Of a DNA stretch of 64,000 bases, positions 23,280 through 39,722 are shown piece by piece. Source of the stretch: Deltaproteobacteria bacterium (GTDB lineage: Bacteria > Desulfobacterota > Binatia > UBA12015); contig VGTG01000009.1 in assembly GCA_016874795.1 (NCBI GenBank), positions 1-64,000 of the forward strand. The letters run 5' to 3'. The position numbers and the translations under genes were made by a program. The notes beneath the pieces were generated by a model, which saw only the letters and a program-made list of their open reading frames with translations, made no database searches and was not told the DNA's origin. Within the stretch, counting starts at the first letter, position 1, and each line of letters opens with the position of its first letter.

Positions 23280-24653
23280 ATGGCGATCCTCGACCTTCTC
23301 AGCATCGGACGGTCGTCGCTGCTCGCTCACCAGCGCGCCTTGACGACGACGGGAAACAACGTCGCCAACGTCAACACCCCCGGCTTCAGCCGGCAGCGGA
23401 CCGTGCTCGACTCGGTCGCCGCGGGCAACGGCTCCGGCGTACGCGTCGCCGGGGTCGAGCAGATCGTCGACGAGCTCCTCGAGGGGCGCGCGCTCCTGCA
23501 GGCAACCTCGCTCGGCGAGGCCGAAGCGCGCCGCGAGCTCCTCGACGTCGCGGAAGGAAACCTTCCCATCGGCACGGCCTCGATCGGCAGCGCTCTTTCG
23601 GAGCTCTTCGCGGCCGCGAGCGCGCTCTCGACCCATCCCGCCGAGATCGGCGTGCGAAGCGACTTCCTCGCCCGCGCCGAGACGGTCGCGGCGCGAATCC
23701 GCAGCGCCGCCGGCGGCATCGCGAGCCTGCAGCGCGAAGCGGACGAACGCGCGGCCGGCGCCGTCCCCGAGGTGAATCGGCTGCTCGACCGCGTCGCCGC
23801 GCTCAACGCGACGATCGCGCGCGCGCAGGCTCTCGGAGAGAACGCGAACGAGCTGCGCGATCAGCGTCGCGGAGCACTCGACGAGCTCGCCCGGGTGATC
23901 GGAGTCCGCACCGTCGCGCGCGAGGACGGCAGCGTCGACGTCCTCGCTCGTTCCGGAATCGCGCTCGTGACCGGGACGAACGCGGCGCGACTCGAGGCGC
24001 GGCCGGGAAGCGCGACCGGCGTCGACGGGCGATCGCTGCACGAGATCGGGATGGTCGCACCGGACGGAAGCTTGATCCCGCTCGGCGACGATCCGGGAGG
24101 CGAGCTCGGCGCGCACCTCGCACTTCGCGACGGCACGCTCGCGACGCTCTCCGCGGATCTCGACCTCCTCGCAACGACGCTTCGCGACGAGGTGAACGCG
24201 GTACAGACCGACCCGGCGGGGCGGGATCTCGACGGCGTCGTCGGCACCGCTCTCTTCGCGGGCACCGGCGCACTGGATCTCGAAGTCGCGCTGACGGATC
24301 CGCGCGGCATCGCCGCGGCCCAGAGCAGCAGCACCGGCGACAATGCGAACGCACTCGCTCTCGTTGCGCTTCAGAAGACCTCCGTCGCTGCGCTCGACGG
24401 TGCGACCTTCAATGACTACTTCGGGAGCCTTCAGGCCCGCATCGGCGGCCTGGCTCGCGAGGCGGAAGAGCAGGTGACCGTCGAGCGAACGCTCGCGGAC
24501 GCGGTCGCAGCGCAGCGCGAGAACGTCTCGGGCGTGAGCCTCGAGGAGGAGTTCACCGACCTGATCCGCTTCGAGCGCGGCTTCCAGGCGGCGGCACAGC
24601 TGATCGCGGTTGCCGATCGCCTCCTCGACGAGCTCCTCGTCCTTCGCCGCTGA
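23280..24653 (+). CDS. flgK: Hook-filament junction protein FlgK
   Basis: A 457-residue first hook-associated protein, started by ATG after a strong GGAGGAACG ribosome-binding site. The N-terminus MAILDLLSIGRSSLLAHQRALTTTGNNVANVNTPGFSRQRTVL is canonical, followed by a long coiled-coil region typical of HAP1 and a C-terminal end VSLEEEFTDLIRFERGFQAAAQLIAVADRLLDELL. It is shorter than enteric FlgK (547) because the surface-exposed D2/D3 domains are reduced. It overlaps flgL by one base (TGATG). Confidence 0.96.
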   Translation: MAILDLLSIGRSSLLAHQRALTTTGNNVANVNTPGFSRQRTVLDSVAAGNGSGVRVAGVEQIVDELLEGRALLQATSLGEAEARRELLDVAEGNLPIGTASIGSALSELFAAASALSTHPAEIGVRSDFLARAETVAARIRSAAGGIASLQREADERAAGAVPEVNRLLDRVAALNATIARAQALGENANELRDQRRGALDELARVIGVRTVAREDGSVDVLARSGIALVTGTNAARLEARPGSATGVDGRSLHEIGMVAPDGSLIPLGDDPGGELGAHLALRDGTLATLSADLDLLATTLRDEVNAVQTDPAGRDLDGVVGTALFAGTGALDLEVALTDPRGIAAAQSSSTGDNANALALVALQKTSVAALDGATFNDYFGSLQARIGGLAREAEEQVTVERTLADAVAAQRENVSGVSLEEEFTDLIRFERGFQAAAQLIAVADRLLDELLVLRR

Positions 24654-25546
24654 TGATCTCCCGGGTGACACAGGGGAGCTTCGTACGCGACCTTCTCCGC
24701 GGCCTCGGCCGCCTCGAGAAGAGGATCGCCGACGCGCAGGGCGACCTGAGCAGCGGGAAGCACGTTCGCGAGCCGAGCGACGATCCTTCGGGCGTCGAGC
24801 GCGCAAGCCGTCTCCGCGTGGAGAGCCGCGAGCTGGCCGCTCTGCGAGAGAGCTTCTCGTTCGCGACGTCCGTGCTCGGGTTGCAGGATGCGACCCTCGA
24901 TCAGGCCGAGGGCCTTCTCTCGCGGGCGCAGGAGATCGCCGCGCAGCATGCGAGCGGCCTCTCCACGACGGACGCGCGCCAGCAGGTCGCGATCGAGGTC
25001 GCGGACATCGAGCGTGCGCTGCTGACGCTCGCGAACACCTCGTTCGACGGACGATACGTCTTCGCCGGGCTGACATCGGGACCGACGCCCCCGTTCCTGC
25101 AGCTCGACGATCCGGGATTCGATCCGCTCGATCCGTACTCGGGGCCGAGCCAGAGCTTCGCGCTGCGCGCCGCGACGGACGAGACGATGCGCCTCACCAC
25201 TCCCGGCGACCTGGTCTTCGGGCCGGCGATCGCCGCGATCGACGAGCTTCGCGCGACTCTCGCCGCCGGCGGCGTGCCGGCGTCGAGCTTCGAAGCGCTC
25301 GACCAGGCGACCGACGTGCTGACCGCGGAGAGGGCGAGCATCGGTGCACGGGCCCGGCGCGTGGAGGAAGGAGTGGTCGACGTGCAGTCCACGCTCCTGC
25401 GAGCCGCCGAGCGCATCGCGGCGATCGAGGAGGCGGAGGTGACCGAAGTGGTCACGGAGCTGACGCGACTCCAGGCGGCGCTGCAGGCGACGCTCGAATC
25501 GGGTCGCGTTCTGCAGTCCTCGATCTTGGACCACATCCGGTTCTGA
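24653..25546 (+). CDS. flgL: Hook-filament junction protein FlgL
   Basis: A 297-residue second junction protein, homologous to flagellin N- and C-termini: ISRVTQGSFVRDLLRGLGRLEKRIADAQGDLSSGKHVREPSDDPSGVERASRLR at the start and TEVVTELTRLQAALQATLESGRVLQSSILDHIRF at the end. The DDPSG motif and the FDGRYVFAGL loop near residue 125 are family hallmarks. No flagellin gene is present in the window, so the sequence is not a flagellin by context (after flgK) and by its short C-terminal helix. Confidence 0.95.
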   Translation: MISRVTQGSFVRDLLRGLGRLEKRIADAQGDLSSGKHVREPSDDPSGVERASRLRVESRELAALRESFSFATSVLGLQDATLDQAEGLLSRAQEIAAQHASGLSTTDARQQVAIEVADIERALLTLANTSFDGRYVFAGLTSGPTPPFLQLDDPGFDPLDPYSGPSQSFALRAATDETMRLTTPGDLVFGPAIAAIDELRATLAAGGVPASSFEALDQATDVLTAERASIGARARRVEEGVVDVQSTLLRAAERIAAIEEAEVTEVVTELTRLQAALQATLESGRVLQSSILDHIRF

Positions 25547-25616
25547 GGTCTTCGAGTCTTTCCGAGTTCGTTGGTTTTGACGTCTTTGGCGACGGCCGAG
25601 TGCCATGGAGGGCATC

Positions 25617-25862
25617 GTGCTGGTTCTGACGCGAAAGGTCGGTGAGCAGGTCCGCATCGGCGATGGGGTCACGGTCCGCGTTCTCGGAGTGCGCGGTGGA
25701 CAGGTGAGCCTCGGCTTCATCGCGCCGAAGGACGTGCGTCTCTTGCGGGAGGAGGTCTCGGTCGCGATCGAGCGAGAGAACCGGAAGGCGGCTCTGGACG
25801 ACGTCGACCACGTCGGCCGGTTGGCGAGCCTCTGGAAGGAATATGGAAGCACGAAGAAGTAG
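25617..25862 (+). CDS. csrA: Carbon storage/translation regulator CsrA
   Basis: An 81-residue RNA-binding protein: VLVLTRKVGEQVRIGDGVTVRVLGVRGGQVSLGFIAPKDVRLLREEV has all five CsrA strands. The GTG at 25617 is chosen over the ATG at 25605 because it gives the universal (M)LVLTRK start, and because GGAGGG lies just before it (the ATG would be inside that ribosome-binding site). The C-terminus is about 20 residues longer than in E. coli, as in the FliW-regulated CsrA group, where the tail contacts FliW. It is expected to repress flagellin translation until the hook is complete. Confidence 0.95.
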   Translation: MLVLTRKVGEQVRIGDGVTVRVLGVRGGQVSLGFIAPKDVRLLREEVSVAIERENRKAALDDVDHVGRLASLWKEYGSTKK

Positions 25863-26334
25863 CCTCGCGGAGTCGTGCGACGTCGAGCTTGCGAAAGCCG
25901 CGGATGCGGGCACCGTTCGGCTCGAGTCGCGGCGATTCGGCAGCGCCGAGGTCCCTCTCTCGGCGGTGTTCACTCTCGACCCGGGGCTGGTCGGCTTCCC
26001 CGGAGCGCATCGCTTCGTCCTTCTCGATCGGGACGCCGGGTCGCCGTTCAAGTGGATGGTGTGCCTCGATCAACCGGAGCTCGGCTTCGTGGTGACGGAC
26101 CCGGTGGAGTGCGTCCCGGGCTACGTCTGCCCGACCGAGCGCGCCGCAGCGGTGCTGTCGTGCGAGGCCGAGGACGTCGCGCTGTTCGTGCTCGTGACGA
26201 TCCCGAAGGAGCCGAAGGAGATCTTCTTGAACCTCCTGGCACCGATCGCGGTGGATCTGAGAAGCGCGCGAGGGCTGCAGATGGTGCTCGAGGACGGGAG
26301 CCTGGACCCGGCGCACCGGGTGCCGCTCGCGTAG
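25843..26334 (+). CDS. fliW: CsrA antagonist / flagellar assembly factor FliW
   Basis: A 163-residue protein overlapping csrA by 20 bases, with a GGAAGGA ribosome-binding site inside csrA. After a 35-residue N-terminal extension the FliW fold is clear: AVFTLDPGLVGFPGAHRFVLLDRDAGSPFKWMVCLDQPELGFVVTDP and LFVLVTIPKEPKEIFLNLLAPIAVDLRSARGLQMVLED. FliW binds either flagellin or CsrA, so free flagellin in the cell restores CsrA repression. The pair controls a flagellin gene that must lie outside this window. Confidence 0.95.
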   Translation: MEARRSSLAESCDVELAKAADAGTVRLESRRFGSAEVPLSAVFTLDPGLVGFPGAHRFVLLDRDAGSPFKWMVCLDQPELGFVVTDPVECVPGYVCPTERAAAVLSCEAEDVALFVLVTIPKEPKEIFLNLLAPIAVDLRSARGLQMVLEDGSLDPAHRVPLA

Positions 26335-26761
26335 GGCGCCTCGTGGGCCGTCCGGCGCGCTGCAGTACGCTGGGACTGCCGCGTAGCGCAGCGTCGTTCG
26401 GAGGCGGGTAGCGTCCTGGTTTGATTCCGAGAGCCGGGTGACGCACTCGGCACAGATGACCCTTCGCACCTCGTCCTCGATCTCGCCGTCGCCACACGCA
26501 TGACGTGCACGGAGGATAGCGCGAGCGTAGAGGGCTCGAACCGGCGCGGCGCCGGCGCCGTGAATCAGACCGAAACGCTACCGGAGGCGGTCTCCTCGTC
26601 GCGTTCGCTTGTTCGCTTGGATGATGGCGTGAGATCCCGAATGGGGAACCGGCCAGCCGAGGAACAGCGCCCTATTCAATCACTCGCATTCGCGTCGCAA
26701 CTCGACGTTTCACACCAATTTTTTTCTTGCGCAGCGCGCGAGTCTCTGGTACCTTCGCGGT
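26335..26761 (+). other. Intergenic stretch, no gene recognised
   Basis: About 430 bases between fliW and the transposase-like gene, with visibly lower GC than the flagellar genes, especially after 26640. I find no convincing coding sequence; short open frames here lack codon bias and ribosome-binding sites. A short GGCGCC-GGCGCC self-complementary stretch lies near 26550. The only signal I support is the promoter-like pair at 26727-26755. Confidence 0.5.
26727..26755 (+). promoter_or_regulatory. Promoter-like -35/-10 pair for the transposase gene
   Basis: TTGCGC at 26727-26732 and TACCTT at 26750-26755 are separated by 17 bases. The start codon GTG at 26762 follows the -10 by six bases, so transcription would begin at or next to the start codon (leaderless). 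Confidence 0.4.
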
Positions 26762-27562
26762 GTGAAGAGAGGCTCACGCGAGCAACTCTCCTTCGATGAC
26801 TTCCGCCGTCGCACGGGCCGAGGCGGACCGAGGTCCGGAGCAGGAAGACCGGCGGGTGCGCGTCCACGTGTGCGCCATCGCCCCAGGGCCGACTTCTCGG
26901 GAACGTGCCCCGCGCACGTGACGATTCGGCTGCGGCGCGGCCTACCGAGCCTCCGCTCTCGCAAGCTCGTGCGCGAGTTCCGGCGGAGCCTCGCAGTCGC
27001 CTGTGAGCGGAGCGAGTTTCGCGTTCTCCACTTCTCCCTCCAGCGGGATCATGCGCACTTCCTCGTCGAAGCGGACGGCACCGAGTCCCTCGCACGCGGC
27101 ATGAAATCGATCGCGGCGAGGCTCGCGCGCGCCGTGAATCGCGTGTTCGAGCGAGTCGGCAAAGTCCTCGACGGCCGGTATCACCTGCACCTCCTCCGGA
27201 CGCCGCGGGAGGTCCGCCACGCTCTCGCCTACGTGCTTCTCAATGCGCGCCGTCACTGGGCGAAGCGATTCGGCACGGCTCCGCCGGTGCGGATCGACGA
27301 AGCGTCTTCAGGCCGCTGGTTCCGTGGCTGGTCGAGGGACGTTCCTGGAGCCGACGTGCGCGGCAGTCCCGATGTCGCGTCCGCGCGCACGTGGCTCGCC
27401 CGCTCGGGCTGGCGACTCCACGGCCTCATCGACCCGGGTGGCGTACCCGGTCCAGGCGAGGGCCGAGCCCGATCCTGGCTCGGTCGCGATCGTGCCGAGC
27501 TTGGCAATCGTACTATAGGACGCAGGGCTCGTGGTCCGATCGAGGGGTCAAGAACGCCTTGA
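26762..27562 (+). CDS. REP-associated tyrosine (Y1/HUH) transposase-like protein
   Basis: A 266-residue member of the Y1 single-strand transposase group. The metal-binding HUH pair is H97-A-H99 (QRDHAHFLVEA) and the candidate nucleophile is Y157 (HALAYVLLNARRH), in the usual RAYT order. The N-terminus is very basic, as is common for RAYTs. RAYTs are single-copy genes that act on short palindromic REP sequences rather than moving themselves; no IS ends flank this one. A long hairpin at 43992-44072 is a possible REP-like substrate, but nothing directly links them. The last 60 or so residues are low complexity and may be degraded. Confidence 0.78.
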   Translation: MKRGSREQLSFDDFRRRTGRGGPRSGAGRPAGARPRVRHRPRADFSGTCPAHVTIRLRRGLPSLRSRKLVREFRRSLAVACERSEFRVLHFSLQRDHAHFLVEADGTESLARGMKSIAARLARAVNRVFERVGKVLDGRYHLHLLRTPREVRHALAYVLLNARRHWAKRFGTAPPVRIDEASSGRWFRGWSRDVPGADVRGSPDVASARTWLARSGWRLHGLIDPGGVPGPGEGRARSWLGRDRAELGNRTIGRRARGPIEGSRTP

Positions 27563-28038
27563 ACGAGAAGGAAGACGGCGGCTCACCGCAAAACCCCCAG
27601 CCACCCTCCGCACCATCTACCAAACCACAACAGCCTGCACGTCGAAGCTCGACACGCCGCAGCGCCCTTCGCCAGTACCGCGCGAGGCTTCGGGGGTACA
27701 CGCCGAGTATTCAGCTCGTGTTCGAAGGGCTGATCGTGTTGTTCACGTTCGTCCTAACAGCCATCTCGATCTACCAAGGCTTTGCCATCAGGCGTCAGAT
27801 CCATCTCGCCGAAGAAGCGAATAGGACCGCCGCCGAGGCCTTGAAGAGAGACCATCAACCATCGGTTTTTCTCGAGGAGGCCTTCTTCTCCGACGAGCCA
27901 CGACGTCAGCAAGATCGCGGATCGATCGAAGCCGAGCGCGATGGCAGAATGCTCGCTGGCGACGCTGCGGCAACGACGGACCGCTACGCCGGGGCCGGTG
28001 CCGCGGCGCGCGAGCCGCCGATTGCTTCCGCCAGCTGA
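27559..28038 (+). pseudogene. Possible truncated single-pass membrane protein
   Basis: An open frame with a doubtful TTG start at 27559, just after the transposase end. It reads a Pro/Gln/Ser-rich N-terminus, a basic stretch, one convincing membrane helix (LVFEGLIVLFTFVLTAISIYQGFAI) and a short helix (RQIHLAEEANRTAAEALKRDHQPSVFLEE). This resembles the N-terminal part of many uncharacterised membrane proteins. After about 27890 the sequence loses any protein-like pattern and runs into the opposite-strand glycosyltransferase gene, so the C-terminal part is probably lost. I do not recognise a family, and it may be non-functional. Confidence 0.35.
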
Positions 28039-30407
28039 TCCAGCCCGTTCAGCGTCGGAGCCACGCTACGCAAGCGCTCGTACTCCGCGCGAGCCCCGTC
28101 GAGCTGCGACAGCCGCACGTACACGCCCGCGAGCGCGAAGCGCATCGAAGCGTCCTCTTGGTTTCGCTCGACGTAGGCAGCGAGGATCGCGCGAAGGCGA
28201 TCCCAGCGCTCGAGCGCGGAGCCCGCACGGAGGAGCCAGTGCAGGACCTCCGCGTCGTCGGGCCACTCGCGCGCGAGCTCCGCGAACACGGTCCACGCAC
28301 TCTTCGCGTCGCCCTGCCCGAGGAGAGCCATGCCGAGACCGAGATGCGCCTTGCGACGCTCGCCTCCGTATCTCTCGCTCGTCCGGAACGCTTCGGCGGC
28401 CCGGTCCCAGCCGGCGAGCTGCAGCTCGATCACCCCCCGGAGGAGCCAGCCACGCGCATGCTCCGGCGCGTGCGCGAGAAGCGCGTCGACGTCGCGCTCG
28501 GCTCCAGACAGGTCGCCGTGCTCGACGGCCTCCGTCGCCAGCGCGCAACGCGCCTCGGCGTTCTCCTCGAGCTCGAGCAGCCGACGCCAGAAGGCGAGCG
28601 CGCGCCCGGGAACACCGGCGCGAGCGCAGAGCTTTGCGCCGAAGCGAAGGACGCCTGCGTCGGCAGGCCAGCGGTCGGGATCGTCCAGCAGCTCTTCCAG
28701 ACCCGCGAAGCCCGCGCTCGCACGCGCCTCCGCCTCCCGAACCCTCTCCCAAGCATCGACTTCCGCCCGATCGACGCCCGCGACGACGCGCCTCGTCGCC
28801 CCGTCGAGCTCGCTCGAGCGGACGATCCACCCGTCGGAGAGCATCTGCGTGAGCTCGTCCGTGAACGAGCGCTCCGACCAGCGTGCGCGGAGACGCGCTC
28901 CGTTCTGCGCGTCGTGATCGTGGCGCCCGGCGGTCTGGCTCTCGAGGTGGAACAGCACGCTCTCCGGCGCGTACGCCACGCGCGCCCCTCGCGCGCCGAT
29001 CCGGAGGCAGAGGTCGACGTCTTCGAACGAGTTGCGGAAGCCCTCGTCGAAGCCGCCGACGGCGGAGAACGCTTCGCGGCGCACGAGCATGCACGCAGCC
29101 GTCACGGCCTGCAGATCGCGAGGCCGGTTCGCCGCGGCGAAGTCACCGGGGCACCTCGCATAGAGATGATACGGCCGGTCGTCGGGATCGAAGACGACGC
29201 CCGCGTGCTGGATCGTACCGTCCGGATAGAGCAGCTTGCTGCCGACGACGGCGACCTCGGCCCGCCGCTCGACGACGTCGATCATCGCGCGCAGCCAGCC
29301 CGCGAGGGGGATCGTGTCGTTGTTGAGGAACACGAGATGCTTCCCGCGCGCCGCTTGCGCTCCTTGGTTGCAAGCGCGCGCGAAGCCGAGGTTCTCGGTG
29401 TTGCGGACGATCTGCACGTCTCCGCCGAGCTTCGCGAGCAAAGCCGCGGTCCCGTCGGTGGAGGCGTTGTCGACGAGAACCACCTCGTAGTGGACGTCCT
29501 CGGTGACGCGGGCGAGCTCCATCAAGCACTGCCGCGTGAGCTCGGCGCGATTGAAGAGCGGGATCACGATCGAGCACTCGTACGAAGTCGGCTGTGAAGC
29601 GTGTCTCTCGCGCGCACGCCGCTGGGCCTCGACGACCCCGGGCGCTCCCGCGGCGAGGTGCGCGTAGCGCCCGTGCACGAGCGCGAGCGTACGGACGAAG
29701 TCGTCGCGGTGACGGCTCGACGTCGAGCTCCCGTCGGTGCGCCAGCTGAAGCTGCACGTCACCTCCTGCACCTGCACGAAGTCGTGACGCTCGGCGAGAC
29801 GGATCAGGAGGTCCCAGTCCTCGTGCGTGAACATGTCCTCGTCGAAGCCGCCGACCGCGTCGATGCAGTCGCGGCGGTGCATCAAGCACGGGAGCGGGAT
29901 GAAGTTCTCGACCAGGAGGACGTCGCGCCGGAACGGAGCGCAGTAGATCGGCTCCGGCGGCGACTGGACCCAGGTCTCTCCCCGCCGCTGCTCGTGCACG
30001 CGCTGCGCGAAACCGTACGCGACGGCGGCGCCTTCTCTCTCGAGGGCGGCGACCAGCAGCTCGAGATGCCGCGGCAGGTACCAGTCGTCGTCGTCGAGAT
30101 AGGCGACGTACTTCCCGCGCGCGAGCCGGAGGCCGGCGTTCCGCGCCGCCGAGCGATTCAGGTTGCGCGCGAGGCGCACGTAGTGGACGTCACGATCAAA
30201 GGCGGAGGCGGAAGCAGCGGCGGCGACCTTGCGGACGACGTGCTCGACCGGCGCTCCGCCGTCGTTCACGACGATCACCTCGACGTGCGGATGCGTCTGC
30301 GCCAGTACGCTCCGGAGGGCACGCTCGAGCCACTCCGGGCGCTCGAACGTCGGCACGATCACGGAGACGAGCGGCTGCCCGCGGGTCGTCGATGCTTCGG
30401 CGATCAT
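27984..30407 (-). CDS. Double GT2 glycosyltransferase with C-terminal TPR-like repeats
   Basis: An 807-residue cytoplasmic protein. The first GT-A domain (about 12-250) has VSVIVPTFERPEWLERALRSVL and the metal site YLDDDDW. The second (about 295-520) has CSIVIPLFNRAELTRQCL, DNASTDGT and FLNNDT, as in rhamnosyltransferase-like GT2 enzymes. The rest (about 590-800) consists of helical TPR-type repeats. The ATG at 30407 overlaps the methyltransferase stop (ATGA) and is preferred to longer readings that would enter that gene. Two fused GT2 units suggest alternating or sequential sugar transfer. As the last gene of a sigma-54-driven operon beside stator genes, it may glycosylate flagellin or a flagellar surface component; that is inference. 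Confidence 0.88.
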   Translation of the reverse strand: MIAEASTTRGQPLVSVIVPTFERPEWLERALRSVLAQTHPHVEVIVVNDGGAPVEHVVRKVAAAASASAFDRDVHYVRLARNLNRSAARNAGLRLARGKYVAYLDDDDWYLPRHLELLVAALEREGAAVAYGFAQRVHEQRRGETWVQSPPEPIYCAPFRRDVLLVENFIPLPCLMHRRDCIDAVGGFDEDMFTHEDWDLLIRLAERHDFVQVQEVTCSFSWRTDGSSTSSRHRDDFVRTLALVHGRYAHLAAGAPGVVEAQRRARERHASQPTSYECSIVIPLFNRAELTRQCLMELARVTEDVHYEVVLVDNASTDGTAALLAKLGGDVQIVRNTENLGFARACNQGAQAARGKHLVFLNNDTIPLAGWLRAMIDVVERRAEVAVVGSKLLYPDGTIQHAGVVFDPDDRPYHLYARCPGDFAAANRPRDLQAVTAACMLVRREAFSAVGGFDEGFRNSFEDVDLCLRIGARGARVAYAPESVLFHLESQTAGRHDHDAQNGARLRARWSERSFTDELTQMLSDGWIVRSSELDGATRRVVAGVDRAEVDAWERVREAEARASAGFAGLEELLDDPDRWPADAGVLRFGAKLCARAGVPGRALAFWRRLLELEENAEARCALATEAVEHGDLSGAERDVDALLAHAPEHARGWLLRGVIELQLAGWDRAAEAFRTSERYGGERRKAHLGLGMALLGQGDAKSAWTVFAELAREWPDDAEVLHWLLRAGSALERWDRLRAILAAYVERNQEDASMRFALAGVYVRLSQLDGARAEYERLRSVAPTLNGLDQLAEAIGGSRAAAPAPA

Positions 30408-31534
30408 ACTCCCCGCCCTTCCGAGGCCGAGCGATCCGGCCGGATGACGACGGACAAGCCGCCCGGATGGATCCGGATGGGCTCCGTCGGGTACGACGCG
30501 CACAGCCGGCGAAGGCCTTCGGGCGCGAAGAAGTTGACGTGACCCGAGCCGGCGTCACGCCGCCCGTCGGGAACGGACAGGAACACCGAGCCTCCCGGAC
30601 GCGCCACGCGGACGAGCTCGGCGAGTGCCGCCTCCGGCCGATCGACGTGCTCGAGGACGTCCGTGCAGAGCACGACGTCGAAGGACGCGCTCGCCCGCGC
30701 GATCGCCGTGATCTCGCCCACCTGGAAGTCGACGCCGGGCACGCTCGCCTCGACGATCGCACGCAGCGTCGACGAGTTGTCCTGCGCGAACGGAACGACC
30801 GCGAAGCGCTCGACGAGCTTCTGGAGCACCCACCCGTTGCCGCAGCCCGCGTCGAACACGCGCGCGCCACGCGAAAAGGAGACCTGCGACACGACGGTCT
30901 CGAGGAGCTTCTCGAGACGCGCGCCGTTGTACTGCATGAACTTCGCCTGGTTCACGAAGTAGCGATCCGTGAACCGCGTCGAGTTGAAGACGGAGGGCAG
31001 GAAGAAGTAGAGCGCCTTGACGTCCTCGACGAAGCGGTCCGACACGACCACCGGCCACCCCGGGCCGACGCGGATCGTCGCGCCGGGCTGGCTCTCCAGC
31101 GCTTCGAGGTGGCCGAGAAGCGCCACGCAGCACTCGAAAAGCCTTTCCCCGACGTCGACGTCGCGACACATCGCCTCCTCGACGTCACCGAGCGAGCCCG
31201 CGATCTCGCCGCGCTCCATGCGCTGCAGGAACCGCGCGAGCGTGGCCTCGGTATCGTCCGGTCGCAGCTCGAGGAGCCGCCCGAGCGATTCTTCGGCGGC
31301 TTCGACGTCGCCGAGGTGCTTCGCGACCCGCGCGCTCTGGAGGATCGCTTGCGCGTGCGTGGGATGGATGTCGAGGATCGTCGCGAGCACGCCACGGGCT
31401 TCGCGAAGCGCGCCGCGCTCCTCGAGCCGCGTCGCGCCTTCGAGGAGCAGCTCGACGATCAGATCGGGGTCGCGCTCCGCGCGCGAGGCTTCCGGAACGG
31501 CGAGCGGATCGGAAGAGAGGGCCACCGCGCTCAT
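30404..31534 (-). CDS. TPR-containing class I SAM methyltransferase
   Basis: A 376-residue protein. Residues about 25-130 are TPR-like helices (LEERGALREARGVLATILDIHPTHAQAILQSARVAKHLGDVEAAEESLGRLLELRPDD). A class I methyltransferase domain follows, with motif I VFDAGCGNGWVLQKL near 228 and the motif IV/V region FDVVLCTDVLEHVDRPEAALAELVRVARPGGSVFLSVPDG. Its start overlaps the stop of the radical-SAM gene, and its stop overlaps the start of the glycosyltransferase, so the three are translated together. Methylation of a sugar or of protein-bound glycan is plausible; the substrate is unknown. Confidence 0.87.
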   Translation of the reverse strand: MSAVALSSDPLAVPEASRAERDPDLIVELLLEGATRLEERGALREARGVLATILDIHPTHAQAILQSARVAKHLGDVEAAEESLGRLLELRPDDTEATLARFLQRMERGEIAGSLGDVEEAMCRDVDVGERLFECCVALLGHLEALESQPGATIRVGPGWPVVVSDRFVEDVKALYFFLPSVFNSTRFTDRYFVNQAKFMQYNGARLEKLLETVVSQVSFSRGARVFDAGCGNGWVLQKLVERFAVVPFAQDNSSTLRAIVEASVPGVDFQVGEITAIARASASFDVVLCTDVLEHVDRPEAALAELVRVARPGGSVFLSVPDGRRDAGSGHVNFFAPEGLRRLCASYPTEPIRIHPGGLSVVIRPDRSASEGRGV

Positions 31535-33552
31535 GCGTGCTCCACCAAAGCCGCGTCTTCTCGCGCCGCTGCGACCGCTTGCCCGCTCGCCAGCGCCAGG
31601 CGCGCCGCCGCGCCGATCGAAGCGTCGTCGTACGCCTGCCAGTTGTTGAGGACGATGCGCGCGGCGAGCGCGTCGAAGTTCGCGAGGACCTCCTGGAACA
31701 AGCCGGTGTCGTGGCGGCGATAGCAGAACAGCGGCTCGGGGATGCGGCGGCCGTGGAAGCCGCGCGCACCGGCGGCGACCCAGAAGTCCCAGTCCTCGCA
31801 GCCCTTCACGTTCGTCCGGTAGCCGCCGACGGCCTCCCAGACCGCGCGCCGGAAGAGCGCGCAGTACGAGATGTGGTTCGCGAAGCGAAGGCGGGCGAAG
31901 TCGTAGTCGCCCGCGAGCACCACCTGCTCGACGCCGTCGAAGTCGCGCCGATCCGTGTACGCGATCGCGATCGTCGGATCGGACTCGAGCACCTCGAGGC
32001 AGCGCTCGAGCATCGTCGGCGCGATCAGGTCGTCCGCGTCGAGGCAGAGGACGTACTCGCCGCGGGCCTCCGCGATGCCGCGGTTCCTCGAGATCGCCGG
32101 CTGGCCCGAGTTCTCCTGGCGGATCGATCGAATCGTGCGGTGCGGATGACGCTCGAGAAGCTCGGCGACGACCGCCGGCGTCTCGTCCGTGCTTCCGTCG
32201 TCGACGATCACGACCTCGACCTCGCGCACCGTCTGGCAGAGGACGCTGCCGACCGCTTCCGGGAGATAGCGCGCGTAGTTGTGGCATGGGATCACGACCG
32301 AGATGCGCGGTGCCTTCTCGATCGCCATCGCAGGCGGGGCGAGCGCAGGTGCGCTGCGGTCGACGAGGAGCGGCGCGACCGCCGCGCGCATGTCCTCCTC
32401 CGGGCTCGTCTTCACGAGGAACGGTGCGCCGTAGCGCCCGCGCGGGCCGTGCACCGGCGCCGTCCAGTCTCCCGCGTCGTACGGACGAAGCTCGTCCTCG
32501 CCGTAGAGCGCGAGGTAGTTGGGATCGACTCCGTCGCACGCCGGGCGAGCGGCGCAGCCCGAGCACTTCGAGGCGAAGAGCTTGCGTCGCTCCCCGCGCA
32601 TCCCGACGATGCGAACGCCGTTCGGCAGGAGCTCGTCCGCCGGACGTGCTTCGAACGCGGCGTCGATCTGTCCGCGCGCGAGAGGAAGCGGCCGCGCGCA
32701 GATCTCCGGAGACCCGCCGAAATGGCCGGCCTCGTTCATCCACTCGTAGGGGTCGTAGCGGACGCCCACGACGCCGACGAGGTTCTTCTCGAAGCCGCGC
32801 ACCGTGCAGAGCGGCGCGTACCGAACGTTCACGGCGACGCCGCCCTCCTCGAGGATCGTGATCGCCTCCTCGAGATGCGGTCGGATGTCCGAGTAGCGCG
32901 CCTGGACGCCGAACGCGCGCCCGTCGCGGTTCCACTCGTAGTACGCGTTCATGATGATGAAGTTGTGGAGGTAGACGCGATGCCGGAGAACCTCGCGGGC
33001 GATCTCCGGCAGATGGCGGAAGTTCCACTCGAACACCGTCGTGTTCGAGCAGTACTGGAAGCCCCGTCCGTCGAGGTGGTCCATCGCCGAGCGGAGCCGT
33101 TCGAAGCTCTCGCCGGTGATGCGGTGGAAGAGCTCCTCGTCGACGGCGTGCACCGAGAGCAGGAAGTTGACGATTCCGGCTTCGAGCAGGTCGTCGACGA
33201 GCCGCTCGGTCGCGCAATTGGGCATCTTCCGCATCAGGAATTGCGCGAGCGTGATCATGCGGCCCGCGAGGCCGAGCTCGCGATGCGCGTAGCGCGTGAT
33301 CTCGACGATGTCGGGATGCAGGCTCGGCTCGCCGCCCGTGTAGTCGAAGTGGAGGAAGCCCGCTTCCTTCAGCCGGAAGAGGATTTCCTTGCACTCGTCG
33401 AGCGAGCGAAACTTCGCTCGGCGCATGCCGCGGAACTGATCGTCGCTCTGATCGAGGTGGCTGTAGTAGCAGAAGCGGCACGAGTGAGTGCACTTCAGGC
33501 CCACGTCGAGAACCGCGCTCCGGCTGAGCGCACCGATGGGATGGCTGTACAT
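31531..33552 (-). CDS. Radical SAM (SPASM-like) enzyme fused to a GT2 glycosyltransferase
   Basis: A 673-residue fusion. The radical-SAM cluster cysteines are C21, C25 and C28 in KCTHSCRFCYY, followed by DYTGGEPSLHPDI. A second Cys group near 330-345 (CSGCAARPACDG) resembles a SPASM auxiliary-cluster region. From about 395 a GT2 domain begins (ISVVIPCHNYARYLPEAVGSVLCQT), with VDDGSTDETP and the metal site CLDADD. The ATG at 33552 follows GGAGGAG, and a sigma-54 promoter starts the transcript about 50 bases upstream. SPASM enzymes modify peptides or oxidise sugars. Fusion to a sugar transferase within a flagellar regulon suggests a combined peptide/sugar modification step. The exact reaction cannot be read from sequence. 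Confidence 0.88.
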   Translation of the reverse strand: MYSHPIGALSRSAVLDVGLKCTHSCRFCYYSHLDQSDDQFRGMRRAKFRSLDECKEILFRLKEAGFLHFDYTGGEPSLHPDIVEITRYAHRELGLAGRMITLAQFLMRKMPNCATERLVDDLLEAGIVNFLLSVHAVDEELFHRITGESFERLRSAMDHLDGRGFQYCSNTTVFEWNFRHLPEIAREVLRHRVYLHNFIIMNAYYEWNRDGRAFGVQARYSDIRPHLEEAITILEEGGVAVNVRYAPLCTVRGFEKNLVGVVGVRYDPYEWMNEAGHFGGSPEICARPLPLARGQIDAAFEARPADELLPNGVRIVGMRGERRKLFASKCSGCAARPACDGVDPNYLALYGEDELRPYDAGDWTAPVHGPRGRYGAPFLVKTSPEEDMRAAVAPLLVDRSAPALAPPAMAIEKAPRISVVIPCHNYARYLPEAVGSVLCQTVREVEVVIVDDGSTDETPAVVAELLERHPHRTIRSIRQENSGQPAISRNRGIAEARGEYVLCLDADDLIAPTMLERCLEVLESDPTIAIAYTDRRDFDGVEQVVLAGDYDFARLRFANHISYCALFRRAVWEAVGGYRTNVKGCEDWDFWVAAGARGFHGRRIPEPLFCYRRHDTGLFQEVLANFDALAARIVLNNWQAYDDASIGAAARLALASGQAVAAAREDAALVEHA

Positions 33553-33612
33553 GTCTCCTCCGGCCGGCCGACGCGGCGCACGAGAGCTGGAGCTGGCCTT
33601 CGCCGCGTGGCG

Positions 33613-33628
33613 AGCAAGGCGAGTGCCA
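33613..33628 (-). promoter_or_regulatory. Sigma-54 promoter for the radical-SAM/glycosyltransferase operon
   Basis: Read on the minus strand, TGGCACTCGCCTTGCT differs from TGGCACG-N4-TTGCW at one position. GG (33627-33626) and GC (33615-33614) have the exact 10-base gap. The predicted start near 33602 leaves 50 bases of leader, containing GGAGGAG, before the ATG at 33552. This is the best sigma-54 match in the window, and it places the modification operon in the same regulon as the flagellar genes. Confidence 0.8.
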
Positions 33629-33694
33629 CCGCGCTCGATCGATCGACGAACGACTGCTTCGCGACGGAGGCTCCGTCCCGTCCCCGAGGGGGGA

Positions 33695-33726
33695 GGAAGA
33701 AAGTTCCGCCTCCGGCAGGGTTTGCG
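33695..33726. promoter_or_regulatory. Shared enhancer-like dyads between two divergent sigma-54 promoters
   Basis: GGAAGAAAGTTCC (33695-33707) is a perfect 5-bp-arm palindrome related to GGCAG-N3-CTGCC. GGCAGGGTTTGCG (33714-33726) keeps the left arm of the dyad. They sit 75 and 94 bp from the -24 element of the minus-strand promoter, and 91 and 72 bp from that of the plus-strand promoter, so one bound activator could serve both. Confidence 0.45.
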
Positions 33727-33789
33727 CGTCTCCGGCGCTCCCGGTCTCGTCCGGAACGCTCGCGGCCCCGCCGATTCACGGCTCCCGGA

Positions 33790-33805
33790 CGGCACGGTTG
33801 CTGCA
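33790..33805 (+). promoter_or_regulatory. Sigma-54 promoter for motA2-motB2
   Basis: CGGCACGGTTGCTGCA matches TGGCACG-N4-TTGCW with two changes (first base and first T of the -12 box). GG is at 33791-33792 and GC at 33803-33804. The predicted start near 33816 is two bases before the ATG at 33818, so the message would be essentially leaderless; the next ATG at 33839 would leave 23 bases. Confidence 0.62.
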
Positions 33806-33817
33806 GCTTCCACGGTC

Positions 33818-34636
33818 ATGAAGCTCGAGCCGCCCCGGATGCGAGCGCGCACGCTGCGAGCGCTCGCCCCACTCTCGTTGCTGGTCGCGACGGCCTGCGG
33901 GGCCGCCTTCTCGGGACTGCTCGAGCCCGTCGCTTTGCTCTTGACGGTCGGCGGCAGCCTCGGCGTGACGTGGCTCACCTTCTCTCGCGCGCGTCTCGAG
34001 AGCGCGTGGAAGCACGTCGTCGCTCTCTTGCGGGAGAGGCCCACGGGCGACGAGGACGGCGAAGCGGTGATCGCCTCCCTGAAGCGACTGGCCCGCATCT
34101 ACCGCGTCGAGGGTGGACCGGCTCTCGAACGGGCCGCCGGCCGCGAGCGCGACGTCTTCCTCCGGACCGCTGTCGAGCGAACGCTCGAATGCGCGGACGT
34201 CGACGAGCTACGCGACTCGCTGCTCGGCGACGTGCGCCGTCTGGTGAACGAGGGAGAAGCGGCGCGCGCCGTGCTGCTGACGCTCGGCAAGCTCCTCCCG
34301 GCCTTCGGCTTGATCGGAACGCTGATCGGCCTCGCGATCCTCCTGCCGGCGGTCGGCGCCGGAGACGTCGCGGCGGCAGGGCCGAGCCTCGGTCTTTCGA
34401 TCTTGACGACGCTCTACGGCGCCGTGCTCTCGAACGTCGTCGTGCTGCCGATCGCGACGAAGCTGCAGTCGGCGCTCGCACGACGTGCTCTCGTCCTGCA
34501 GATGATCGTCCTCGGAGCCGAGCTCCTGCACCGGCGCGCGTACCCGACCGAGGTCGAGCGCTCGCTGCGCTCCTTCGGCGGGCTGGCAACGCTGCCTCCG
34601 ACGGAAGTCACTCTCCTGACCGACCGTGCTGCCTGA
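33818..34636 (+). CDS. Second MotA-like stator protein
   Basis: A 272-residue MotA/TolQ/ExbB-type protein with four membrane helices. Two are near the N-terminus (LAPLSLLVATACGAAFSGLLEPVALLLTVGGSLGVTWLTF) and two near the end (LGKLLPAFGLIGTLIGLAILLPAVGAG and LSILTTLYGAVLSNVVVLPIATKLQ). The proline of LLPAFGLIG corresponds to the conserved TM3 proline of MotA. The cytoplasmic loop at about 60-160 is charged. The ATG at 33818 has no ribosome-binding site, and an ATG at 33839 is an alternative. With the overlapping motB-like gene it forms a stator pair additional to motAB at 37.8-39.7 kb; ion specificity cannot be assigned. Confidence 0.85.
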   Translation: MKLEPPRMRARTLRALAPLSLLVATACGAAFSGLLEPVALLLTVGGSLGVTWLTFSRARLESAWKHVVALLRERPTGDEDGEAVIASLKRLARIYRVEGGPALERAAGRERDVFLRTAVERTLECADVDELRDSLLGDVRRLVNEGEAARAVLLTLGKLLPAFGLIGTLIGLAILLPAVGAGDVAAAGPSLGLSILTTLYGAVLSNVVVLPIATKLQSALARRALVLQMIVLGAELLHRRAYPTEVERSLRSFGGLATLPPTEVTLLTDRAA

Positions 34637-35531
34637 CGTCGCGAGCCTGCCCGCCGCCGCTCCGCAGGGGGACGACCAGGATTCCTGGTCGTGGCTGGTC
34701 ACCTTCAGCGATCTCGTGCTGCAGCTCTTCGGGTTCTCGATCGTGGCCATGGTGATCGGCGCGGGCCAGGTCGCGAGCCACCGAGCGCCTGTCGCGAACG
34801 ACGTCGCCCTCGAGGAGAGCTCGGCCGCAGCATCGGTCGAGCTCGCGGCGAGCGGGAGCGCAATCGAGATCGCTTCGAGCGCGTCGTCGAGTCTGCGCGA
34901 GGCCGAGGTGGCCGAGGATCGCGACCGCATGCCCACGCCCGAGCCCAAGCTCGAGCCCGCCAAGCCCGCCGAGCCCGCCGAGCCCGCCGAGCCCGCCGCC
35001 GTGATCGCTGCCGAGACCGCGGTCGCCGCTGCTTTGCCGAAGCCCGCCGGCATTCCGCCGCCGGGCGTCGTGCCGCAGAGCGCCCGCCTGACGGCGCTCG
35101 TCCGTTACCTCGAAGAGCTTCTGCCCTCGCAGGACGATGCGCTCGTCGCCACCGTCGAACGGACCGACGGCGCCGTCGTCGTCGCGGTCGCGGACGGCTT
35201 CGCCTCGGGAAGTGCCGAGCCGTCGCCTGCGATGCGCCCTCTCCTCGCGGAAATCGGCACGCTCGCCGGCGCCTCGCCGGACGTCTCCATCGAGGTCGCG
35301 GGGCATACCGACGACCGACCCATCCACACGACGGCGTACGCGTCGAACCTCGAGCTGTCCCTCGCGCGCGCCTCGCGCATCGCTCGCGACCTCGTGGCGG
35401 CGGAGCCGGGGATCGCGGAGCGCGTGTTCGCTTCCGGCTACGGCGAGCAGCGACCGGTCGCCGCGAACGACGAAGCTCGAGGCCGCGCGCGCAACCGCCG
35501 CATCGAGATCCGCCTCTCGCCCCTCTCCTGA
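34626..35531 (+). CDS. Second MotB-like stator protein
   Basis: A 301-residue protein with a GTG start overlapping motA2 by 11 bases. A single membrane helix begins at the conserved WSWLVTFSDLVLQLFGFSIVAMVIG, with the ion-binding Asp in TFSDL. An Ala/Glu/Pro-rich linker includes five EPA-type repeats. The C-terminal OmpA/MotB peptidoglycan-binding domain shows IEVAGHTDDRPIHTTAYASNLELSLARASRIARDLV and GYGEQRPVAANDEARGRARNRRIEIRLSP. The linker is longer than in MotB1, which might suit a different wall distance. Chemical partners and ion type are not readable. Confidence 0.88.
   Translation: MLPDVASLPAAAPQGDDQDSWSWLVTFSDLVLQLFGFSIVAMVIGAGQVASHRAPVANDVALEESSAAASVELAASGSAIEIASSASSSLREAEVAEDRDRMPTPEPKLEPAKPAEPAEPAEPAAVIAAETAVAAALPKPAGIPPPGVVPQSARLTALVRYLEELLPSQDDALVATVERTDGAVVVAVADGFASGSAEPSPAMRPLLAEIGTLAGASPDVSIEVAGHTDDRPIHTTAYASNLELSLARASRIARDLVAAEPGIAERVFASGYGEQRPVAANDEARGRARNRRIEIRLSPLS
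34953..34997 (+). repeat. Five 9-bp tandem repeats in motB2
   Basis: Five in-frame copies of (G/A)AGCCCGCC encode EPA-KPA-EPA-EPA-EPA in the periplasmic linker. The units are identical apart from one base, so the linker length is probably variable. Confidence 0.85.
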
Positions 35532-36978: not shown

Positions 36979-37859
36979 AGGACCATCGTCCGTAACGCCG
37001 CGGAAACGGCCTCGTGCTTCGCGAGCACGGCTTCGGCGTCGTCGGGATAGAGGTTCAAGTCCGCCCAGCCGCGGTGACTCCGCACGAGGTCGTCGTCCAG
37101 CGTTTCCGAGAGAAGGTGACGGGCGAGATGATCGGCGAGGCCCGTGATCACGGGCTCCTGCGCAAGGATCTCGTGAGAGTCGTACGTCGCGTACGACTCG
37201 ATGCAGCTCCGAACCGCGGCCGTAAGAGACCACTTCTCCGCGAGAAGACCTCCTGCCGTCACGTGGAACTCCTCGAGCAGCGAAGCGAGCTCGTCGTCTC
37301 GAAGGGGAGCGCGCAGGCTCGCTTCGAGGTCGACGGCGGCCTGCAGCACGAGCGGCTTTCCGATCGTGTGGAGAAGCCCGCACAAGAACGCGCTCTCGAC
37401 GTTGCAGCGCAGCGCCCGCGCGATCTCGCGACCGAACGCCGCGGATGCGAGCGCGTGGCGCCAGATCGCGCGCAGCTCCACCCGACGACCGCGCACGTCG
37501 AAGACTCCGCTCTGCAGCGAAGCGATCAAAGCGATCTCTCCCAGCAAGCGGACCCCGAGCCGGGTGATCGCCTGCTGCAGGGAAACGATCGGGGACCGGG
37601 GCATGTAGGCAGGCGAGTTCGCGATGCGCAGCACGTGTCCCGCGAGAGCCGGATCTTGCTGGAGCAGGCGTGCGATACTGTTCGCGCCCTGCTCCTCGTC
37701 GCGCGCGAGCGTGAAGACCTCCGTCGCGACCCGCGGCAAGAGCGGGAGCTCGACCTCGCCCCCGGCGAACCGTGCGGAGAGCGCTTCACCCACGAGGGCG
37801 AGCGGCTCCTTCGCGGTCGGTCGGGTGGCCTGTGAGGAGACCGCTTCGCTCGTGTTCAC
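36975..37859 (-). CDS. HDOD-domain protein with degenerate HD motif
   Basis: A 294-residue signalling protein. The HDOD domain spans about 30-235: LPLLPRVATEVFTLARDEEQGANSIARLLQQDPALAGHVLRIANSPAYMPRSPIVSLQQAITRLGVRLLGEIAL. The position of the HD pair reads LLHTIGK, with Thr in place of Asp, so hydrolase activity is unlikely, as for most HDOD proteins. The GTG start overlaps motB (GTGA) and the end overlaps sthA. HDOD proteins often act as adaptors in motility and c-di-GMP circuits; the stator neighbourhood is consistent with that. Confidence 0.88.
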   Translation of the reverse strand: MNTSEAVSSQATRPTAKEPLALVGEALSARFAGGEVELPLLPRVATEVFTLARDEEQGANSIARLLQQDPALAGHVLRIANSPAYMPRSPIVSLQQAITRLGVRLLGEIALIASLQSGVFDVRGRRVELRAIWRHALASAAFGREIARALRCNVESAFLCGLLHTIGKPLVLQAAVDLEASLRAPLRDDELASLLEEFHVTAGGLLAEKWSLTAAVRSCIESYATYDSHEILAQEPVITGLADHLARHLLSETLDDDLVRSHRGWADLNLYPDDAEAVLAKHEAVSAALRTMVL

Positions 37860-38800
37860 CCGGTGACCCCCGTTCCGTTCGCTTCCCGCGGTGTCGCGGC
37901 GACGGGGATCTCGTCCCTGGGAAGCACGATCGGGCCTTCCTGCTTCTCTCCGCTCGAGCCCGCCTTGGCCCCCTCTGTCCGCTCGGCGAGGATCGACAGA
38001 CGGCGATTCTCGTGGGCGAGCGGCGCGCCGGGATCGAGCGGCTCGCTGTCGGCGTACGAGAGCACGCGCTTCACCTGCTTCGGACGGAGCCCGCTCGTCT
38101 CGAGAACGAGACGAGCGTTGTCGGCGCGCTCGAACGAGAGCTCCCAGTTCGTCTTGCCGGAAGCCGCCGGATACGGGCGAGAGTCGGTGTGGCCGCCGAC
38201 CTGGACCGGATTCGGAAGCTCGCCCAGAACGCCCGCGACCTTTTTCAAGAGCGAGACGAGAGGCGGCTTCAGGTCGGACGACGAGAGATCGAAGAGCAGC
38301 GTCGGGTCGCGCGCCTGGTCGATCACCTGGATGCTGAGCCCGGAGTCGCGGACCTCGATGATGACCTGGTCGCGCAGCTTCTCGAGCGAAGGATCCTTCG
38401 CACCGGCCCGCTGGATCGCGTCCTCGAGCGCCTTGGCATGGCTCTCGAGAGCCTCTTGCTCTTGCGAAGCCTTGGAATCGGCGGACTCCTGCTTCTTGGG
38501 CACGCCCGTCCGGACGAGGACCATGTCGTTCTCGATCAGGCTTTGCTCGAGCCGGTGCGCTGCGCTCTTCTCGTCGCTGACCACGCTGCCGCCCGGCAGG
38601 ATCCCGGGATCGCGGAAGTACTGCGCGATCTGCGAGCGGAGCTTCACGTCGGCCTGCGTCAGCAGCCAGAGCACCATGAAGAGCGCCATCATCGCCGTCA
38701 CGAAGTCGGCGTAGGCGACCTTCCACGCTCCGCCGTGGTGAGCCGCATGAGCGGCCTTCTTCTTGATGACGATCCGGACGGTCTCGGCTTCCTTCGGCAT
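37856..38800 (-). CDS. motB: Flagellar stator protein MotB
   Basis: A 314-residue stator B subunit. The ATG at 38800 follows GAGAGG and starts four bases after motA; longer readings would overlap motA. A basic N-terminal tail (VRIVIKKKAAHAAHHGGAWKVAYADFVTAMMALFMVLWLL) leads to the membrane helix containing the ion-binding Asp in AYADF. The OmpA-like domain at about 200-290 includes PVQVGGHTDSRPYPAASGKTNWELSFERADNARLVLE and RVLSYADSEPLDPGAPLAHENRRLSI. The long periplasmic helical region is of the large MotB type found in alpha/deltaproteobacteria and pseudomonads. Confidence 0.95.
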   Translation of the reverse strand: MPKEAETVRIVIKKKAAHAAHHGGAWKVAYADFVTAMMALFMVLWLLTQADVKLRSQIAQYFRDPGILPGGSVVSDEKSAAHRLEQSLIENDMVLVRTGVPKKQESADSKASQEQEALESHAKALEDAIQRAGAKDPSLEKLRDQVIIEVRDSGLSIQVIDQARDPTLLFDLSSSDLKPPLVSLLKKVAGVLGELPNPVQVGGHTDSRPYPAASGKTNWELSFERADNARLVLETSGLRPKQVKRVLSYADSEPLDPGAPLAHENRRLSILAERTEGAKAGSSGEKQEGPIVLPRDEIPVAATPREANGTGVTG

Positions 38801-38804
38801 CCTC

Positions 38805-39671
38805 TCAGCTCCCGCCCGCCTTGACCTCGCGACAAGCCGCGTCCGTCTCCTCGCTCGTCGGACGGTTCGCCGAGAAGATCGATTTTCGCGCGAACTCGAT
38901 GGCAACGATCGGCGCGGCTCCGCGGAGGGAAGCGACGACGCCTTCCTTGATGCAACGCAGGTAACGGGTGGCCATGTTCGTCTGGACCTCGATCGTCGTC
39001 GCGAGCGGCGACAGGAGCCCGTACGAGAGCAGAATGCCGAGGAACGTTCCGACGAGCGCGGCCGCGACGTGGTGTCCGATCACCTCCGGGCCGCCGTCGA
39101 GGTGCCCCATCGTGACGATGATGCCGAGCACCGCGGCGACGATGCCGAGACCGGGAAGAGCGTCGCTGGTCGTGCGGATGAGGCTGATCGGAACGTGCGC
39201 TTCTTCGTGATGCGTCTCGATCTCGTTGTCGAGCAGAATGTTCAGCTCTTCCGGAGACGCGGTGCCGTTGACGATCTGCTTCAGCGCGTCGCGAAAGAAT
39301 TCCACGGCATGGTGGTTCTTGAGGAAGCTCGGATACTTCGAGAAGATCGAGCTCTTCTCCATGTCGTTCACGTGCTCGTCGAGCGCGACGGCGCCGCTCT
39401 TCCGGATGAACGAGTAGAGCTCGTATTGCAGCTTGAGAAGCTGCACGTAGTCTTCCTTCGACGGCATCGTGGCCGAGAACGCCGCGCCGAAGGCCCGGAA
39501 GACTTGACCTCGGATCTGACCGGGCGCGGAGACGATCAGCGCCCCGAGTGCGGCTCCGCCGATGACGACGAGCTCGCTCGGCTGAATCAGGATGGCGAAG
39601 TTGCCACCGACCATGGCGAACCCGCCCATGACCGACGCAAAGACCACTACGAGGCCGATCGCGGTGAACAT
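38805..39671 (-). CDS. motA: Flagellar stator protein MotA
   Basis: A 288-residue stator A subunit with four membrane helices: FTAIGLVVVFASVMGGFAMVGGNFAILIQPSELVVIGGAALGALIV, and the TM3-TM4 pair LPGLGIVAAVLGIIVTMGHLDGGPEVIGHHVAAALVGTFLGILLSYGLLSPLATTIE, where the conserved proline is in LPGLG. The ATG at 39671 is used; a GTG two codons upstream is possible. There is no good ribosome-binding site and only about 52 bases separate the start from an upstream terminator hairpin, so the transcript probably starts very near the ATG. First gene of motA-motB-HDOD-sthA. Confidence 0.96.
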   Translation of the reverse strand: MFTAIGLVVVFASVMGGFAMVGGNFAILIQPSELVVIGGAALGALIVSAPGQIRGQVFRAFGAAFSATMPSKEDYVQLLKLQYELYSFIRKSGAVALDEHVNDMEKSSIFSKYPSFLKNHHAVEFFRDALKQIVNGTASPEELNILLDNEIETHHEEAHVPISLIRTTSDALPGLGIVAAVLGIIVTMGHLDGGPEVIGHHVAAALVGTFLGILLSYGLLSPLATTIEVQTNMATRYLRCIKEGVVASLRGAAPIVAIEFARKSIFSANRPTSEETDAACREVKAGGS

Positions 39672-39722
39672 GACCACCCGCTAGTCGGCTCCGACTTCGC
39701 CGGTGTTGAGAGGCGAATGTCG

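Follow-up and report, generated by a model that had tools for sequence, protein, structure and literature searches.

Organization of the Operon and Domain Composition of Its Products

The stretch of DNA analyzed here (64,000 nucleotides from a Deltaproteobacteria bacterium, hereafter the window) contains, among flagellar genes, an operon for radical SAM, glycosyltransferase (GT) and methyltransferase proteins, which raises the question of whether these proteins modify the flagellum and, if so, by what chemistry. The initial annotation placed three translationally overlapping genes, here named A, B, and C, between fliW and the stator genes. Their coordinates proved exact, both ATGA junctions (A/B at 31531-31534 and B/C at 30404-30407) were read from the sequence, and Pfam analysis identified fliW to the left, motAB to the right, and, for each of the three products, the domains named in that annotation (Table 1).

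Table 1. Features of the fliW-motA region, in window positions.
Feature	Position	Strand	Description
flgK	23280-24653		left flank, before fliW
flgL	24653-25546		left flank, before fliW
csrA	25605-25862		left flank, before fliW
fliW	25843-26334	+	left flank of the operon
Segment without counterpart in G006	26335-33817		fliW-motA interval; presumed insertion carrying the operon
Y1/IS200-like transposase-type ORF	26762-27562	+	PF01797, E-value 2e-7; within the presumed insertion
Gene C	27984-30407	-	807 aa; GT2 + GT2 + TPR
Gene B	30404-31534	-	376 aa; TPR + methyltransferase
Gene A	31531-33552	-	ATG start, 673 aa; radical SAM (residues 1-400) + GT2 (GT2a, residues ~405-640)
Sigma-54-type promoter TGGCACTCGCCTTGCT	33613-33628	-	exact consensus match
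motA (MotA_ExbB)	33818-34636	+	right flank, divergent from the operon
motB-like OmpA-domain stator gene	34626-35531	+	

The first half of the gene A product matches the Radical_SAM domain PF04055 at residues 20-186 (E-value 5e-21; 76 bits against a cut-off of 29.5) and carries the motifs C21xxxC25xxC28 and GGEP (G73-G74-E75-P76), both invariant across 11 aligned sequences; by these sequence motifs, gene A belongs to the radical SAM superfamily. After the core, C249, C330, C333, and C339 are the only further invariant cysteines in this alignment, thus they probably bind one auxiliary Fe-S cluster; an invariant YDPxEWxN-type region is a further feature of this half. Twitch radical SAM enzymes carry a single auxiliary Fe-S cluster on three to four post-core cysteines, and SPASM-domain maturases have about seven auxiliary cysteines. 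We rejected the latter class for gene A, which has four such cysteines and no match to the SPASM Pfam domain at an E-value of 0.01. Of the earlier description as SPASM-like, the extra invariant cysteines are retained as sufficient for one auxiliary cluster, whereas the domain itself is absent. Sequence and fold comparisons place the radical SAM core near MoaA, PqqE, BlsE, and viperins, as matches of the core that indicate no substrate class: a fold search with whole gene A returned GT2 structures only, and the radical SAM half alone returned core matches only. The second half, GT2a, matches Glycos_transf_2 (residues 418-539, E-value 4e-31) with the motifs DDGSTD, DADD, and ED. Its catalytic motifs are kept, since D452-S454-T455-D456, D505/D507/D508, and E586-D587 are invariant in seven family members.

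The gene B product combines a TPR region (residues 39-100; TPR_19 at 39-97, E-value 3e-7) with a class I methyltransferase domain (Methyltransf_11, residues 228-318, E-value 4e-17), and has no demonstrated ortholog in related loci. Gene C encodes two Glycos_transf_2 stretches (whole-protein E-value 3e-62), GT2b at residues 15-150 and GT2c at 278-511, followed by TPRs around residues 630-754. In Pfam searches, neither Maf/DUF115 nor PqqD/RRE domains were detected in the three proteins, and the operon in the window includes no flippase, polymerase, or polyprenyl transferase.

Sigma-54 Promoters and the Flagellin Locus

The promoter sequence TGGCACTCGCCTTGCT stands 60 bases upstream of the ATG of gene A. 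Exact sigma-54 sites occur 16 times in the genome, compared with 4 occurrences for a reversed-pattern control, and also precede a pilin-like gene and the ammonium transporter gene amtB. Genes of the pilin and ammonium transporter types are classical sigma-54 targets. The site that had been cited in favor of a flagellar target is exact, but sigma-54 alone is not flagellum-specific in this genome, as the sites of the pilin-like gene and amtB demonstrate.

The genome's own flagellin is encoded on another contig (C65), together with flaG-like, fliD, and fliS genes. An operon next to it, encoding a DUF3880-GT and a GT9 protein, starts 15 bases behind an exact sigma-54 site; thus, as far as these sites indicate, this flagellin-linked glycosyltransferase operon and the radical SAM operon share their promoter type. 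The DUF3880-GT and GT9 genes (L115:5759-9222) follow flagellin-flaG-fliD-fliS in the same order as in the MAG YF2.bin80 (L121:13041-16495), and they probably constitute the main flagellin glycosylation operon of the genome. A Maf assignment of the 605-aa gene beside this flagellin was rejected, since it encodes DUF3880 plus a GT. Because the flagellin is located elsewhere and has a glycosyltransferase operon of its own, the target of the radical SAM operon could instead be the hook, FlgK/L, or non-flagellar.

Probable Insertion between fliW and motA

In a genome of the same family (G006, locus L148), the gene order is flgK-flgL-csrA-fliW-motA-motB, with about 150 bp between fliW and motA. In G002, the corresponding position is occupied by an unrelated PAS-type ORF (assigned by eye). 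A search of 13 genomes from this genus and family at an E-value of 1e-8 yielded no homolog of the radical SAM part of gene A. The comparison suggests that about 7.4 kb, comprising the IS200-like ORF and the inverted operon, were probably gained here between fliW and motA. Loss in the relatives is the alternative; we infer gain, and with it the direction of transfer, because the cassette is patchily distributed in distant phyla. Two other signatures of transfer were considered and rejected: there is no tRNA between fliW and the operon that would indicate tRNA-borne integration, and the GC content of the operon matches its surroundings.

Several further features of the region were recorded. Two related IS200/Y1-type (RAYT-like) transposase ORFs are found near the two flagellar loci of the genome (window positions 26762-27562 and L115:18637-19119). 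A span of 6 kb contains two different motAB-type stator pairs that face opposite directions (33818-35531 on the plus strand and 37856-39677 on the minus strand). Just outside the window, a gene for a 564-aa radical SAM protein (G000:C9:71893-73587) is located near efflux-pump genes, with no link to the operon seen.

The Radical SAM/GT2a Module in Other Genomes

The family was collected by scans of bacterial genomes and viral contigs with the first 400 residues of gene A; searches with the full-length protein were swamped by GT2 domains. The radical SAM part, fused to or paired with GT2a, was identified in a Chloroflexi MAG (L069; 68% identity to the window in this part), a Deltaproteobacteria MAG (L073; 62%), a Magnetospirillum MAG (L074; 54%), Telmatospirillum siberiense (L071; 53%), YF2.bin80 (L072; 44%), and the phage contigs L075 and L057. 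In the Desulfobacterales MAG G249 (L070; 62%), it belongs to a multi-GT protein about 3600 aa in length. This single frame (contig C19, L058/L070:8564-19390) contains radical SAM, several GT-like, and TPR regions, lies beside flagellin, and may encode a giant glycosylation multienzyme. Searches of further genomes (385 from the Telmatospirillum class, 345 from the L073 phylum, and 380 from the phylum of the Chloroflexi MAG) yielded no new fused members. Plasmids yielded no radical SAM part and were matched by full-length gene A through the GT2 domain only; the radical SAM cluster of a Brachyspira plasmid (PMC4267127) thus gave no indication of membership in the family.

A sister set of unfused proteins, about 45-47% identical, comes from a single family (f56) within the phylum of the window. 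In the phylogenetic tree, the window, the flagellar members, and the phage members are separated from the unfused set with a support of 97/100. GT2a tracks the radical SAM part, with 37-68% identity vs. about 25-30% for other GT2s, and thus the two are inherited as a unit. The other parts are variable: GT2b is common to the window, L069, L073, and phage L075 (47, 40, and 34%), and GT2c is shared with the gene just upstream in L069. Judged by these comparisons, the radical SAM/GT2 pair is a rare, conserved module.

Association with Flagellar Loci

A search for the fusion near flagellar genes elsewhere, as had been proposed in the initial annotation, supported the flagellar reading: besides the window, all five cellular members whose flanking sequence is long enough are located in flagellar loci of independent genomes. 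In L069, 128 bp separate the end of the fusion from flagellin, which is followed by flaG-like, fliD, fliS, and rod-protein genes; in L073, flagellin is 2.4 kb away. The giant gene of G249 precedes genes for a TPR protein, FlaF, FlbT, flagellin (about 3.4 kb away), motA, and motB. The Telmatospirillum fusion is located on a 393-kb contig at 31.6 kb, with basal-body genes (FlgI, FliG, and others) on one side at 5-18 kb and NeuB/flagellin/fliD on the other; flagellin, at 55.8 kb, is 22 kb from the fusion. The YF2.bin80 fusion, at 103.7 kb, shares its contig with flagellin, flaG, fliD, fliS, GT9, and DUF3880-GT genes at 87.6-94.5 kb, flagellin being 15 kb away. For the Magnetospirillum member, no flagellar gene was seen on its 15-kb contig. 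The association thus comprises six genomes of a small family. By hand arithmetic, with 2-6 flagellin-domain genes per genome and distance cut-offs picked after the fact, the chance of random placement is roughly 0.4-0.7% each for flagellin within 5 kb (three genomes) and 5-6% each for flagellin within 25 kb (two genomes).

Two of these loci have additional genes of possible relevance to glycan structure. The Telmatospirillum island seems to encode three more proteins that resemble radical SAM enzymes but belong to other families (by eye; L071:12466-14049 and 19335-20462, L129:1418-2365), which suggests a radical-SAM-rich biosynthesis of flagellar glycans. Sulfotransferase-like and APS-kinase-like genes (by eye) are present in the flagellin island of YF2.bin80 (L072:3146-4742), hinting that its flagellar glycans are sulfated.

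The unfused clade served as a control. None of its 11 genomes, each with 3-7 flagellin-domain genes, carries such a gene on the same contig at a distance of 50 kb or less; the nearest is at about 55 kb (G592), and draft contig ends limit this comparison. The unfused copies are accompanied by genes for GT2, cytidylyltransferase, epimerase, and two other radical SAM proteins (assigned mostly by eye). Surface-sugar clusters of this kind in f56 (L098, L102, and L107-L109), with GT2s and cytidylyltransferase-like genes, contain three radical SAM families, one of which is the unfused sister of gene A, and recur over several genera.

The position of the unfused copies beside GT2 and nucleotide-sugar genes and away from flagellin brings in another explanation, namely that a cassette for a surface polysaccharide (O-antigen, capsule, or exopolysaccharide) has landed in the flagellar cluster and its radical SAM enzyme acts on a lipid-linked or nucleotide sugar. 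The resemblance of GT2a to chondroitin and heparosan synthases is in line with this explanation, as is the Brachyspira plasmid cluster of radical SAM and GT genes, which has been read as serving LOS/glycosylation (PMC4267127). We regard it as improbable, given that the five other members of the fused clade are found at flagellar loci in different phyla, that the operon in the window encodes no flippase, polymerase, or polyprenyl transferase, that its TPR domains suggest protein acceptors, and that two phage copies are surrounded by structural genes. A consistent placement in O-antigen or capsule loci, named in the initial annotation as the context that would contradict a flagellar role, does not hold for the fused clade; it does fit the separate unfused sister clade.

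Phage-Borne Copies

The module is present in three phage lineages, in two of which it lies amid head or terminase genes. In L057, the radical SAM-GT2a fusion is encoded just upstream of the terminase large subunit and portal genes, and in L076/L077, genes for radical SAM and a different, adjacent glycosyltransferase are located between those for the major head protein and the head-tail connector. In the third lineage (L075, a 116-kb IMG/VR record, IMGVR_UViG_3300028043_000001), the radical SAM gene is followed by GT2a-GT2b and these by a methyltransferase, with dUTPase and SbcC-like genes in the vicinity, and the parts are nearly those of the window; in this block, a GT2 and several methyltransferase-like genes accompany the radical SAM gene. 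Since two copies lie within head or packaging regions, their gene context suggests that a virion protein is modified, and some viruses may thus decorate their shells in a similar way. Because phages carry the module, its acceptor need not be flagellin.

Phage carriage might also reflect receptor masking, in which an altered flagellum blocks flagellum-binding phages and the phage copies counter or exploit this masking, and gene A shows weak similarity to the pVip (viperin) profile. However, the phage copies are part of head and packaging regions rather than lone accessory genes, and the viperin similarity is that of the shared core only (32.9 bits against the curated NCBIfam cut-off of 180), for which reason we also rejected a prokaryotic viperin or defense identity of gene A. 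This explanation is very improbable.

Proposed Function

We propose, with good but not full confidence, that the operon is a horizontally acquired cassette for flagellar glycan modification, inserted between fliW and motA, transcribed from a sigma-54 promoter, and working as follows. Its core would be gene A, a MoaA/PqqE-type radical SAM enzyme, probably with one auxiliary Fe-S cluster, tethered to a GT2 of the GT-A fold. Before its export, flagellin or another axial subunit, for instance the hook protein or FlgK/L, would be retained in the cytoplasm by the TPRs of B and C, in the same manner as by those of FlmG. GT2a, GT2b, and GT2c would attach sugars in succession, the radical SAM domain may carry out a radical reaction (epimerization, dehydration, or oxidation) on the sugar handled by GT2a, and the gene B product would methylate the glycan.

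Alternatively, the radical SAM enzyme may act on the flagellin backbone or a side chain, in the manner of a RiPP maturase, so that GT2a glycosylates the newly formed site. Peptide maturases (SuiB, SkfB, and PqqE) are indeed among the fold matches, and the module is found beside genes for flagellin and phage head proteins, which are abundant and self-assembling; however, gene A lacks both a PqqD-type peptide-recognition domain and a SPASM match, and the unfused sister clade belongs to sugar clusters, which favors sugar chemistry and renders the peptide alternative unlikely. One clade has this radical SAM type in sugar clusters and the other has it beside genes for flagellin or phage structural proteins, and a GT was nearby in every case seen. 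The simplest interpretation is therefore that the radical SAM enzyme alters a sugar, which the partner GT transfers to whichever acceptor the system has.

More speculatively, and with the odds still well against it, the radical SAM-GT2 pair could be a general protein-decorating machine that creates a glycan linkage or a radical-rearranged sugar so far not known from proteins, on flagellin in bacteria and capsid proteins in phages alike, the module being transferred between both; if so, self-assembling surface polymers would be the shared type of acceptor. A conserved radical SAM-GT pair tied to flagellar genes in Chloroflexi and in alpha- and deltaproteobacterial lineages offers a concrete target for study, and a radical SAM enzyme tethered to a transferase could serve as a new tool for producing modified glycoproteins.

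Comparison with Known Systems

The flagellin O-glycosyltransferase FlmG of Caulobacter binds flagellin via its TPR domain (PMC7591256). FlmG and the cassette are alike in combining TPRs with glycosyltransferases and, as proposed for the latter, in modifying flagellin in the cytoplasm; however, FlmG has one GT-B domain and uses pseudaminic acid, whereas the cassette has three GT2 domains, a TPR-methyltransferase, and a radical SAM domain. Other known flagellar glycosylation islands, such as Pseudomonas Fgt, Shewanella sfm, and the Maf islands of Campylobacter and Aeromonas, resemble the cassette in having GTs and methyltransferases by flagellin or late flagellar genes, but a radical SAM-GT2 fusion is not described for them in the literature found. 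Assignment to the Maf class of flagellin transferases was rejected, as none of the three proteins contains a Maf/DUF115 domain.

MoaA, PqqE, and BlsE rank among the top matches of gene A by sequence and fold and share its CxxxCxxC and GGEP core; the likeness is limited to this core, and the scores of gene A fall far short of all curated NCBIfam cut-offs. The substrate of BlsE is a sugar acid. The closest solved relatives of GT2a are chondroitin and heparosan synthases (PDB 2z86 and 8vh7), which have a tandem GT-A layout like that of gene C, but are capsule polymerases and, unlike gene A, contain no radical SAM domain. Campylobacter phages CP220 and CPt10 carry radical SAM genes that were noted as unusual (PMC2853527). 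Like the phages described above they encode phage-borne radical SAM proteins, with a nucleotide-sugar epimerase nearby; however, the identity is only about 25%, and these proteins have no GT2 fusion.

A literature search on radical SAM enzymes in flagellin, protein, or capsid glycosylation, covering mostly open papers and no preprints, found no such system described, in agreement with the initial annotation, which knew of no radical SAM-GT2 flagellar system. To our knowledge, no known flagellin glycosylation system uses radical chemistry. Thus, islands for flagellar glycosylation are familiar, whereas the module of radical SAM and GT2 appears to be a new addition to them.
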